Source of the DNA: Streptomyces erythrochromogenes
GTDB lineage: Bacteria > Actinomycetota > Actinomycetes > Streptomycetales > Streptomycetaceae
NCBI RefSeq assembly: GCF_036170895.1
Contig: NZ_CP108036.1
Span: forward strand, 7,165,501-7,229,500
DNA: 64,000 nucleotides
Direction of reading: 5' to 3'
Shown: piece by piece, positions 1-33,625 of the stretch
Numbering within the stretch: the first letter of the stretch is position 1
Layout: every line of letters starts with the position of its first letter
Notes under the pieces: model-generated
Databases searched by the model: none
Seen by the model: the letters and a program-made list of their open reading frames with translations, nothing else
What the model was told of the DNA's origin: nothing
Translations under genes and position numbers: made by a program

Positions 1-1151
1 AAGGTCTTGTCCGGGAAGTGCTTGGCCAACTGGTAGATCGCGGCCGTGATGAAGTAGATGCCGGTCGACTCCAGCGGCTCCAGGAAGCAGGACGACAGGC
101 CGATGCTGACGACATTCTTCACCCACGCGCGGCGGTTGCGGCCGACGCGGAAGCGAATGTGGTTGAACTTCGTCTCCTCCACGTCCAGGCCCCACATGTC
201 CGCGAACTCGCGGGTGGCGGTGTCCTGGTCGGTGAACTTGCTGGAGTACACGTAGCCGGTGCCGAAGCGGCCCAGCATGGGGATCTTCCAGGCCCAGCCC
301 GACGACATGGCGATCGCCGAGGTGTACGGCTCCACCCCGCCCGCCTCGTCGTCGTGCGGGACGGCCGTGGCCACCGCGCTGTCGCACAGCAGGTGGTCGC
401 TCATGTCGATGAACGGCTCCTGCATCGCCTGGTTGATCAGCAGCCCGCGGAAGCCCGAGCAGTCCACGAACAGGTCGGCGTCCAGCGCCAGCCCGCCCTT
501 GGTGTGCAGCGTCGTGACGTACCCGCGGGAGTCCTGCTCGACCCGGACCATCTCGTCCTGCACGTGGCCCACGCCCTGCTTCTCGGTGGCGAAGCGGCGC
601 AGGAAGTCGGCCACCAGCTGGGCGTCGAAGTGCCAGGCGTACCGGGTCGCCGGGCGGCCGTCGAGCCAGCGCGGGGCCTTCATCGCGTCCATCACGGGGG
701 GCTCGCGGAAGCAGGCGTAGTCGAACGGCTCGGTGGTGCGGCCCTCGTACTTGCGCTTGAACCAGTAGTGCGACAGCGGCGTCTGGTCGTAGTCCGGCAG
801 CAGCCCGAAGGGGTGGTAGAAGTGGTCCGGGCCGCCGCCCGGGAGCTCCCGGGCCGTCGACTCGCCCTGCCCGTCGGTGCGCCAGTTCACGAAGCGCACG
901 GCCATCTTGAAGCTGGCGTTGCACTCCCGCATCCACTCGTCCTCGGCGATCCCCAGGTAGTCGAAGAACGAACGCTGGAGATTGGGCACGGTGGCCTCGC
1001 CGACCCCGATGCGGGGGATCGTCGGCGCCTCGAGCACGGTGATGTCGACCGTTCCCTGGAGCGCCTTGCCGAGATACGCGGCCGTCATCCAGCCGGCCGT
1101 GCCGCCTCCCAGGATGACGACCTTCTGAAGCCGGGTGTCGGTGCTGGTCAT
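1..1151 (-). CDS. FAD-dependent tryptophan halogenase (C-terminus cut by window edge)
   Basis: Flavin-dependent halogenase that chlorinates (or brominates) the indole ring of tryptophan using FADH2, O2 and halide. About 383 residues are visible of a family length near 510 to 530; the C-terminus lies outside the window. Seen: the N-terminal FAD dinucleotide-binding motif GGGTAGW near residue 15, the segment [11 protein letters not shown] carrying the family catalytic lysine, and the halogenase signature GWAWKIP. The ATG at 1151 is preceded by a GAGGG ribosome site. It is transcribed away from the SARP gene at 1327, and the shared intergenic region holds direct heptamer repeats in both orientations. 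The regiochemistry (5, 6 or 7) cannot be read by eye; position 6 would fit the JBIR-34/-35 indole. No partner flavin reductase is visible in the window. Confidence 0.93.
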
Positions 1152-1211
1152 GAAACAGCCCTCATTTCGGAGTCGGCGGTTCGGGTGGTCGTGCTCATCA
1201 GTGTCGAAAAA

Positions 1212-33300: not shown

Positions 33301-33625
33301 CGGCGAGGTGCTCCCGGGCGGCGTCGGCGGACAGGTCGCGCAGGTCCACGACCGGTATGCCGAACGGCAGCGGGTCGGACGGCACCCACTGGGTGCCGTC
33401 GGTGCTGCCGATCGCGCGGAGCATGTCGTGACGGGCGACCACCTTGCGCCAGGCGGTGGCGAACCGCTCCGGGTCGAGGTCCGCGCGCTCCCACTCGAAG
33501 TATCCGTAGCAGCCGATGCCGCCCATCTCGACGGCTTCGCCTCGCCCGATCATCAGTGCCTGCTGCGTCTCGGTCATCGGGAAGGACGCGGCACTGTCCG
33601 CGCGAGCGGGCAGGAGCTCGGTCAT
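30335..33625 (-). CDS. NRPS Cy-A-PCP module (oxazoline/thiazoline-type)
   Basis: 1096 residues. Heterocyclization domain about 15-450 (FPMTETQQALMIGRG; DxxxxD seen as DLQVLD in place of HHxxxDG), A domain about 470-970 (FTSGSTGEPKG, A5 as GGPTETICW), PCP about 1005-1070 (LGGDSLSG). Specificity positions read by eye are D-A-Y-N-V-S-S-C-W, resembling the D-L-Y-N-x-S-L-I-W pattern of cysteine-activating A domains next to Cy domains, so a small beta-nucleophilic amino acid (Ser, Cys or alpha-methylserine) is likely. Cy domains condense and then cyclodehydrate to an azoline. With the SHMT variant beside it, a 4-methyloxazoline is the best guess, as for the tridomain FmoA3. Acidic C-terminal tail ELEADETDTADAAG. 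Confidence 0.92.
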   Translation of the reverse strand: MTELLPARADSAASFPMTETQQALMIGRGEAVEMGGIGCYGYFEWERADLDPERFATAWRKVVARHDMLRAIGSTDGTQWVPSDPLPFGIPVVDLRDLSADAAREHLAALREEMSHVVFPVGSWPLFDLRIIRLGGPEDLGRVHLGIDLQVLDASSAFQVLFPELVDLYENPDAELPEPGIGFAEYARWRAEALPHTEAFRTARDYWVQRVPTLPPAPSLPTGGSGGDAGEVRFDRREHRLSPTDWQRFTERAHGAGLTPSVLLTAAFAEVVRAWAEESDFTINYPVFQRPAVHPDITGVLGDFTNAVMLAADGSGATFLDRAHALRDQLARDMEHGSFNGVRVLRELTRLHGVGAQAGMPVVVTSLLDYPVRRPVTDLGREVYSISQTPQVTLDVQLRELAGELRVIWDFVDGAFAPGFVDAAFGVYVDLLEKLTDDPDSLHTARFDLVPPAERELRRQVNDTAGQIPYTTLHELFARQAELTPDAEAVVDASGRRLSYAELASYAWRIGHTLREHGAAPGELVAVVMEKGWEQYAAVYGILASGAAYLPLDASVPPERLRRLLAEAKVDRILTQSSLESRISWPPTARRYRVDKDFETGTATRPDTAQTPADLAYTIFTSGSTGEPKGVMVDHIGVVNLIRDVAARFEVGARDRLLAISGLHFDASIYDVFGVLTQGGTVVVPPPFEHAEPDVWADLVQAERVTLWNSVPVLMELLVGEAEVRERRGGGRPLESLRLSVLSGDWIPLTLPDRLRAQSPKIQVVGSGGPTETICWSLFQPIGEVDPSWTSIPYGKPITNQRYYIVDGAAYERPLGVVGEMAVASDVGLALGYWNDAERTESRFVRLPETGERAYLTGDLGRYLPDGSIEILGRDDFQVKIQGHRIELGEIEAVLRQDDEVEAAVVVAPASAHGVRRLHAFVVAGAGCDAGAADRVLGRLAAQLPGYMVPAALTALDELPLTRNGKVDRLLLASSAGSRQSADDAAVRDGGDGTGSALELVLCAAVADILGLDGVAPGDNFFTLGGDSLSGTRLAGLLKELLGVPVPVKTVFQNPVVSELAAKIAADEQHGAEAVAAAEAFGELEADETDTADAAG

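Follow-up and report, generated by a model that had tools for sequence, protein, structure and literature searches.

A probable tambromycin-type nonribosomal peptide synthetase cluster in Streptomyces erythrochromogenes and a possible beta-lactone release by its cysteine-type thioesterase

Gene content and assignment of the cluster

A 64,000-nucleotide stretch of the 8.6-Mb Streptomyces erythrochromogenes genome (G000:C1:7165501-7229500; here "the window", with negative coordinates to its left) carries a nonribosomal peptide synthetase (NRPS) unit that extends from a flavin reductase gene ~1.2 kb left of the window to regulators ending at 39751. It is very probably a complete cluster of the tambromycin (JBIR-126, BGC0001368) type, a known cluster. 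An earlier note on this DNA had listed a halogenase, a cassette of stand-alone adenylation-peptidyl carrier protein (A-PCP), thioesterase (TE), MbtH and P450, an aldolase, an aldehyde dehydrogenase (ALDH), a starter module, a serine hydroxymethyltransferase (SHMT) variant, a heterocyclization (Cy) protein Cy-A-PCP and two further A modules; all of these are real genes with intact frames, and its count of four A domains on the peptide line is borne out. To that list we add a methyltransferase (MT) domain in the starter, a phosphopantetheinyl transferase (PPTase), an AlkZ-like protein, an MFS exporter, a lone condensation (C) domain, two acyl-CoA-dehydrogenase homologues (ACAD1 and ACAD2), a DUF2461 protein, a GNAT protein, a Cys-type terminal TE and the regulators up to 39751. 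None of the 23 tabulated genes contains an internal stop. Start codons are our choice; for the terminal NRPS, 15049 is an alternative to the start at 15199 on which the residue numbers are based. A-domain code positions were read from alignments with the motif anchors of the GrsA system. The features are as follows.

~-1155 to -763, left of the window: flavin reductase (PF01613)
-450 to 1151 (1 to 1151 inside the window), minus strand: FADH2-dependent tryptophan halogenase, 533 aa (PF04820, 448 bits)
1327 to 2325, plus: SARP-type regulator (PF03704/PF00486)
2381 to 3964, plus: ALDH, proposed to convert chloroindole-3-carbaldehyde to the acid (PF00171, 513 bits; GQTC and ELGGK motifs)
3961 to 5793, plus: stand-alone A-PCP, code DGWSVAVIA, proposed to load Trp or chloro-Trp (PF00501/PF00550, in a longer frame; alignments)
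5797 to 6543, plus: stand-alone Ser-type TE (GHSFG) that would release beta-hydroxy-Trp (PF00975; motif)
6584 to 6763, plus: MbtH-like protein (PF03621)
6765 to 7979, plus: cytochrome P450, proposed aminoacyl-PCP beta-hydroxylase (haem motif FGHGRHLCLG; nearest solved relative 4L0E)
7995 to 11933, plus: starter NRPS A-PCP-Cy-MT, A code GFAVQIMEW, Cy motif DFLVAD (Pfam; alignments)
11969 to 12580, plus: Sfp-type PPTase (PF01648)
12593 to 13624, plus: AlkZ-like DNA glycosylase of the AZL type, QAQ motif, proposed self-resistance (PF06224, 179.5 bits)
13744 to 15021, plus: MFS exporter (PF07690)
15199 to 19284, plus: terminal NRPS C-A-PCP-TE, A code DMYNFGLIH, C motif HHIVTDG, proposed substrate alpha-methylserine (Pfam; alignments)
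18556 to 19281, plus: terminal Cys-type TE (GHCAG), ObiF-like, proposed beta-lactone-forming release (6N8E match; alignments)
19277 to 22633, plus: NRPS C-A-PCP, code DVFESGGVA with Glu at 278, C motif HHIAWDP, proposed Lys-type substrate (Pfam; alignments)
22633 to 24039, plus: lone condensation-like domain, second catalytic His replaced by Leu (PF00668)
24119 to 25309, plus: ACAD1, proposed lysyl-PCP desaturation toward tambroline (8HK0, 271.6 bits)
25306 to 26451, plus: ACAD2, likely partner subunit (6WY8 match)
26519 to 27007, minus: GNAT acetyltransferase (PF00583)
27127 to 28197, minus: threonine-aldolase-fold pyridoxal phosphate enzyme of the GntG family that would cleave beta-hydroxy-(chloro)Trp in a retro-aldol reaction (NF041359)
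28194 to 28883, minus: DUF2461 protein (PF09365)
28880 to 30280, minus: SHMT variant, proposed alpha-methylserine synthase (PF00464)
30335 to 33625, minus: Cy-A-PCP, an FmoA3 homologue with code DAYNVSSCW that would form the methyloxazoline (6LTA, 1147 bits)
33716-35602 and 36146-38986, minus: two SARP/BTAD regulators (domain scan; kept in relatives)
39332-39751, minus: MarR-type regulator (domain scan; kept in relatives)

Gene content and order are kept, as far as the contigs reach, in the 12 loci compared, of which 11 at most are distinct since S. avidinii is present twice; given this kept order, chance is ruled out as the source of the gene set. The exceptions to collinearity are a variable PPTase, a DUF2461 gene shortened in genome G203 and, in G034 (L116-L118), ~10 kb of additional sequence that separates ACAD2 from GNAT in a cluster whose remainder is collinear. 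At least four close Streptomyces loci, with starter proteins 84-96% identical, were found among the 78 distinct loci listed (named genomes). The conserved block comprises 26 called genes from -2419 to 39751 (42.2 kb); their counterparts in H27-S2 (L006), which is the S. antarcticus type strain, show 74-96% identity.

The reference tambromycin cluster, from Streptomyces sp. NRRL F-4474, has 27 genes in 42,431 bp (PMC8466323), and the collinear extent we observed is of the same size (~27 genes, ~42.4 kb in BGC0001368). All 27 genes were reported in 36 genomes and the loss of the PPTase in 10 more, 46 genomes in total (PMC8466323); a 2026 paper describes the same loss in four genomes. The PPTase gene is likewise present in the window and in most of its relatives (at most 11 distinct), with no match among them in G231, G273 and G234 and only 48-53% coverage in PKU-EA00015 and G038. 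The species of H27-S2 has been reported to carry a cluster 96% similar to that of tambromycin. Because gene content, extent, PPTase polymorphism and a Lys-like A-domain code all match, we file the locus as tambromycin-type; the published cluster fits in size, in the polymorphism and in its chemistry, that is, a chloro-hydroxy-N-methylindole acid, two alpha-methylserines (MeSer) and a Lys-derived residue (PMC8466323, PMC13273461), and tambromycin was tied to its cluster by 15N-Lys feeding (PMC10206073). No difference from the published cluster came to light in these features. It counts against the assignment that it draws on cluster features and on a relative.

The earlier note had likened the locus to the JBIR-34/-35 (fmo) cluster of Streptomyces sp. 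Sp080513GE-23. We made that comparison with one fmo protein, FmoA3 (PDB 6LTA), and through a cluster in genome G007, whose label "JBIR-34-type" derives from FmoA3 similarity alone. FmoA3 is the best solved match of the window Cy-A-PCP (1147 bits); the two share the A code DAYNVSSCW, and the published MeSer-contact residues of FmoA3, A688, N730 and S760, have the same letters at the aligned window sites. Identity between the A domains is nevertheless 66.5%, against 86% for the G007 A domain (the sole one at that level among 11 searched genomes with second-tier SHMTs). Between the window and G007, identities are 64% for the halogenase, 46% for the flavin reductase, 54% for the ALDH, 48% each for the A-PCP and its TE, 62% for the P450, 57% for the A-PCP-Cy-MT protein, 51% for DUF2461, 67% for the SHMT, 55% for the Cy-A-PCP, 53% for the AlkZ-like protein, 43% for the SARP and 42% for a Na/H exchanger; the A-PCP code DGWSVAVIA agrees with that of f12 of G007 at 8 of 9 positions, and both clusters have a Cys-type TE.

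At least five window genes have no counterpart in the G007 cluster, namely the PPTase, the lone C domain (only generic C-domain matches), both ACADs and the GNAT gene. The downstream modules are divergent, no MbtH was found in the G007 cluster, its MFS gene gave no match to that of the window, and its aldolase belongs to another subfamily. Its Cy-A-PCP and SHMT are fused in one 1,704-aa frame (L102:7662-12776) with a linker of ~200 residues, unlike the separate genes of the window. That the locus is itself a JBIR-34/-35 cluster, whose peptide would end in Ala and Ser, is therefore most improbable: the homologous cassette, the FmoA3-like protein with its identical code, the SHMT and the AlkZ-like gene speak for it, but G007 is the closer match to FmoA3, the lone C domain, ACAD pair, GNAT and PPTase genes lack G007 counterparts, and the third module carries Glu278. 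The resemblance to fmo thus stood insofar as the cassette is homologous and failed as a closest match, and we regard the fmo pathway as a sibling of the window cluster. The overlap separates a common gene set, which marks the indole acid and the methyloxazoline, from an unshared set that marks tambroline, and it singles out DUF2461 as a cluster gene.

Proposed routes to the indole acid and the peptide residues

Genes, frames, motifs, codes, conservation and formula arithmetic were read directly; from them we infer every catalytic step, and the lactone discussed below. The published m/z of tambromycin A, 536.1907, agrees with C24H30ClN5O7 to 0.1 ppm (another formula lies within 3 ppm), and tambromycin B is smaller than tambromycin A by one MeSer residue. 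In a synthetic paper, the indole fragment is taken to be N-methylated and to bear an oxygen at C4 (PMC7067857). If the acid is taken as indole-3-carboxylic acid plus Cl, O and CH2, and two MeSer residues are assumed, the remaining residue is Lys minus 2H, which is one split of the atoms among others that are arithmetically possible. The formula thus implies that the pathway needs one N-methylation, one ring hydroxylation and one two-electron oxidation of Lys.

For the starter acid, we propose that Trp is chlorinated and then loaded on the stand-alone A-PCP, that the P450 beta-hydroxylates the PCP-bound residue, and that the Ser-type TE then releases the product. The GntG-type aldolase would cleave this beta-hydroxy residue to glycine and indole-3-carbaldehyde, the ALDH would oxidize the aldehyde, and the starter A domain would load the resulting acid, to be N-methylated by the MT domain. 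The nearest solved relative of the P450 is 4L0E (299 bits), which is P450sky, a beta-hydroxylase of PCP-bound amino acids (PMC4758615, PMC5683658); two CYP125MRCA entries follow at 284-288 bits, and the next match scores 219. The aldolase passes the curated cut-off of the GntG-family model NF041359 (329.1 bits against 230), its nearest solved relatives being L-allo-threonine aldolases. The likeness to P450sky and to GntG aldolases is thus one of nearest solved P450 and of family cut-off, and the substrates proposed here are a prediction. Both the window and the G007 starter A domains lack Asp235, which fits an acid without an alpha-amine. The P450sky relative, the GntG cut-off and the presence of the same cassette in G007 with a nonorthologous aldolase together support the retro-aldol route to the indole acid. 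The earlier note's logic for a chloroindole-3-carboxylate starter therefore holds up, as does its retro-aldol cleavage followed by oxidation; its route was incomplete, omitting the N-methylation, for which the MT domain is present, and the ring hydroxylation.

Several points weigh against parts of this scheme. Over the 383 in-window residues, the halogenase matches RebH, 6UL2 and Thal (Trp 7-/6-halogenases) near equally (639-647 bits), such that 6- and 7-chlorination are not distinguished, and P450sky leads the CYP125 reconstructions by only ~11 bits. The G007 aldolase-fold gene is only 30% identical to that of the window and groups with a different subfamily (its row is long-branched), so that a common ancestral retro-aldolase is not established; the nonorthology of the two implies that one gene was replaced by another or that each cluster recruited its own. 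No gene of the conserved block stands out as encoding the ring hydroxylase; the candidates are the P450 acting twice, DUF2461, or a cytochrome P450 encoded at L001:10326-11699. DUF2461 may be dispensable, as it is shortened in G203.

It is improbable that the aldolase acts on another residue, with the indole acid made by some other route. The gene does sit in the SHMT operon and not in the A-PCP/P450 operon, and its G007 counterpart is nonorthologous. Yet the enzyme is a GntG-family aldolase, a threonine-aldolase-fold gene accompanies the A-PCP/TE/P450/ALDH/halogenase cassette in both clusters, and the conversion of Trp to indole-3-carboxylate loses the alpha-carbon and the carboxyl group, just as a retro-aldol reaction removes glycine.

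DUF2461 overlaps each of its neighbors by 4 bases, has a predicted fold that resembles DUF1054, and is represented by seven full-length matches in a sample of 121 Streptomyces genomes, six of which lie in these clusters. The P450 gene at L001:10326-11699, the second in the region, lies ~7-9 kb left of the window start. A second threonine-aldolase-fold gene (L003 ~5464-6489, corresponding to window 69464-70489) lies ~41 kb right of the cluster aldolase; it is 27% identical, and a similar distance is seen in G046, G043, G231 and G273.

For the peptide line, the SHMT variant, an FmoH-like enzyme, would make MeSer, and the Cy-A-PCP would add and cyclize it. The earlier note's pairing of SHMT with Cy-A-PCP for a methyloxazoline gains support from the code shared with FmoA3. 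Among 295 Streptomyces genomes, 11 (counting its own) have an ortholog of the SHMT at 80% identity or above, followed by a gap down to 65%. The C-A-PCP protein would load Lys, the two ACAD homologues would convert it to tambroline (Lys minus 2H), and the last module would add a second MeSer. The codes DVFESGGVA, DAYNVSSCW and DMYNFGLIH are compatible, as sequences, with a Lys-derived residue and two MeSer, and Glu278 in the DVFESGGVA module suits a basic residue. Of 394 genomes of the class, two have ACAD1 at E<=1e-90, one of them being its own genome; in the solved complex 6WY8, chain A is matched by ACAD2 and chain B by ACAD1. The tambroline step might proceed, for example, by desaturation and aza-Michael addition, perhaps on the defective lone C domain. 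That domain reads HL where the usual motif has HH, both in the window and in the rows of all 12 relatives, and is thus unlikely to be an ordinary condensation domain; that it serves as a platform or cyclase is a guess.

Tambroline could instead derive from a hydroxylated lysine with no desaturation, which we consider rather unlikely. Hydroxylysines have been named as building blocks in tambromycin synthesis (PMC12930750), but neither a 2-oxoglutarate oxygenase nor a second P450 was found among the scanned genes of the conserved block; the net change is Lys minus 2H, and G007 lacks the ACAD pair.

The terminal thioesterase and a possible beta-lactone

The best solved match of the terminal TE is holo-ObiF1 (6N8E), from the obafluorin NRPS, at 120.5 bits and 35.8% identity over 226 residues, the next match scoring 72.7. 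In the alignment, Cys1146 of ObiF1 falls on Cys1197 of the window, Asp1254 on Asp1306 and His1284 on His1336, and the canonical Asp site is Ala in the window TE and Gly1173 in ObiF1. Thus, the two enzymes share the GHCAG motif, a shifted Asp and an empty canonical site; both GHCAG and the shifted Asp with none at the canonical site are kept in the rows of all 12 relatives. Published work treats Cys together with a shifted Asp as a mark of thioesterases that form beta-lactones (ObiF) or beta-lactams (SulM). As a control, 30 of 71 TE matches in three genomes were listed, and these comprised 26 Ser, 3 Cys and 1 unread; two of the three Cys enzymes lie in these clusters and the third (G007:C1:865337) elsewhere, the window TE not being among the 30. 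The G007 cluster carries tandem TEs, GHCAG and GHCLG, the second without an aligned His, probably because of a one-column alignment shift.

A beta-hydroxy-alpha-amino acid is proposed as the terminal residue here, as in ObiF1; the window differs in the residue aligned with Arg1190, in its 35.8% identity and in its presumed MeSer substrate. Terminal MeSer is suggested by published chemistry and by an association of codes at other loci. Ten other Streptomyces loci (L192-L205) have SHMT variants 55-61% identical to that of the window, and nine of these encode, ~2 kb away from the SHMT, an NRPS A domain that shares 53-59% identity with the window terminal A domain and has the code DMYN(F/L/M)G(L/M)IH where the window has DMYNFGLIH (among rows exceeding 44% identity); for the tenth, G123, the only match was weak. 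The GHCxG thioesterase motif was absent from all ten SHMT-variant stretches (8 to 32 kb each). This ten-locus comparison indicates that the code goes with the SHMT and that the Cys-type TE goes with the two cluster types. DMYN(F/L/M)G(L/M)IH would then be a second MeSer code, and such loci likely encode other MeSer peptides.

On these grounds we put forward, as evenly poised, the proposal that the Cys-type TE releases the chain as an alpha-amino-alpha-methyl-beta-lactone that alkylates DNA, with tambromycin A arising when water opens the ring and tambromycin C when pantetheine does so. The primary product would be C24H28ClN5O6 (calculated MH+ 518.1801), and the compounds isolated so far would be its opened forms. 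The printed formula of tambromycin C exceeds that of tambromycin A by exactly pantetheine minus H2O; six other thiols were tried as the adduct, and their formulas do not fit. Thiols are known to capture the obafluorin beta-lactone of ObiF, which is also hydrolyzed to the beta-hydroxy acid (PMC6668435).

A DNA-alkylating lactone, if real, would also explain the AlkZ-like glycosylase in both clusters, which would protect the host from electrophilic lactone adducts on its DNA. The only PDB match of this protein at E<=1 is AlkZ (5UUJ, 3.7e-20). It shares PF06224, the Q-aliphatic-Q motif and an in-cluster location with the AZL self-resistance glycosylases AlkZ and HedH4, and its QAQ, inside a biosynthetic cluster, conforms to the published (Q/H)-aliphatic-Q rule (PMC9040887). 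The AlkZ-like gene in the tambromycin and JBIR-34 clusters has already been noted, and the question was left open (PMC9040887).

Weighing against the lactone, Arg1190 of ObiF aligns with Ser in the window TE, Cys-type TEs need not make a lactone, and the pantetheine arithmetic equally fits a thioester shed from the line. The compound has moreover been described as a tetrapeptide released as tambromycin A, with no beta-lactone reported in the texts consulted. Simple hydrolysis of the linear tetrapeptide is accordingly a strong contender that we place a shade short of an even chance; tambromycin A would then be the real end product and tambromycin C a thioester lost from the line, and the AlkZ-like protein would have another role or act on an unrelated substrate. 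In its favor, besides the lost Arg1190, tambromycin A is the identified compound, B and C being minor (PMC8466323), and another NRPS, the uncharacterized AB3403, also has a Cys-type TE, albeit with its Asp at the ordinary site (PMC11298585). However, the nearest solved TE is by a wide margin ObiF1, with its shifted Asp, and the proposed terminal residue carries the required beta-hydroxyl. Furthermore, the C1146S variant of ObiF1 gave the hydroxy acid only (PMC6668435), which implies that hydrolysis does not need the Cys.

The beta-lactone idea may already be in print in the primary tambromycin or fmo papers. Lactones are not mentioned in PMC8466323 and PMC9040887, nor tambromycin or JBIR in PMC6668435 and PMC11298585, and the idea does not surface in the titles or abstract openings of papers listed under tambromycin.

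Genes to the right of the cluster

Outside the conserved cluster, the window carries a gene for a nitric oxide synthase oxygenase domain at 45115-46098 (PF02898, 457 bits). A wax ester synthase/diacylglycerol acyltransferase (DGAT) gene follows at 50322-51665, and then a gene for an old-yellow-enzyme-type flavin oxidoreductase at 51745-52854.

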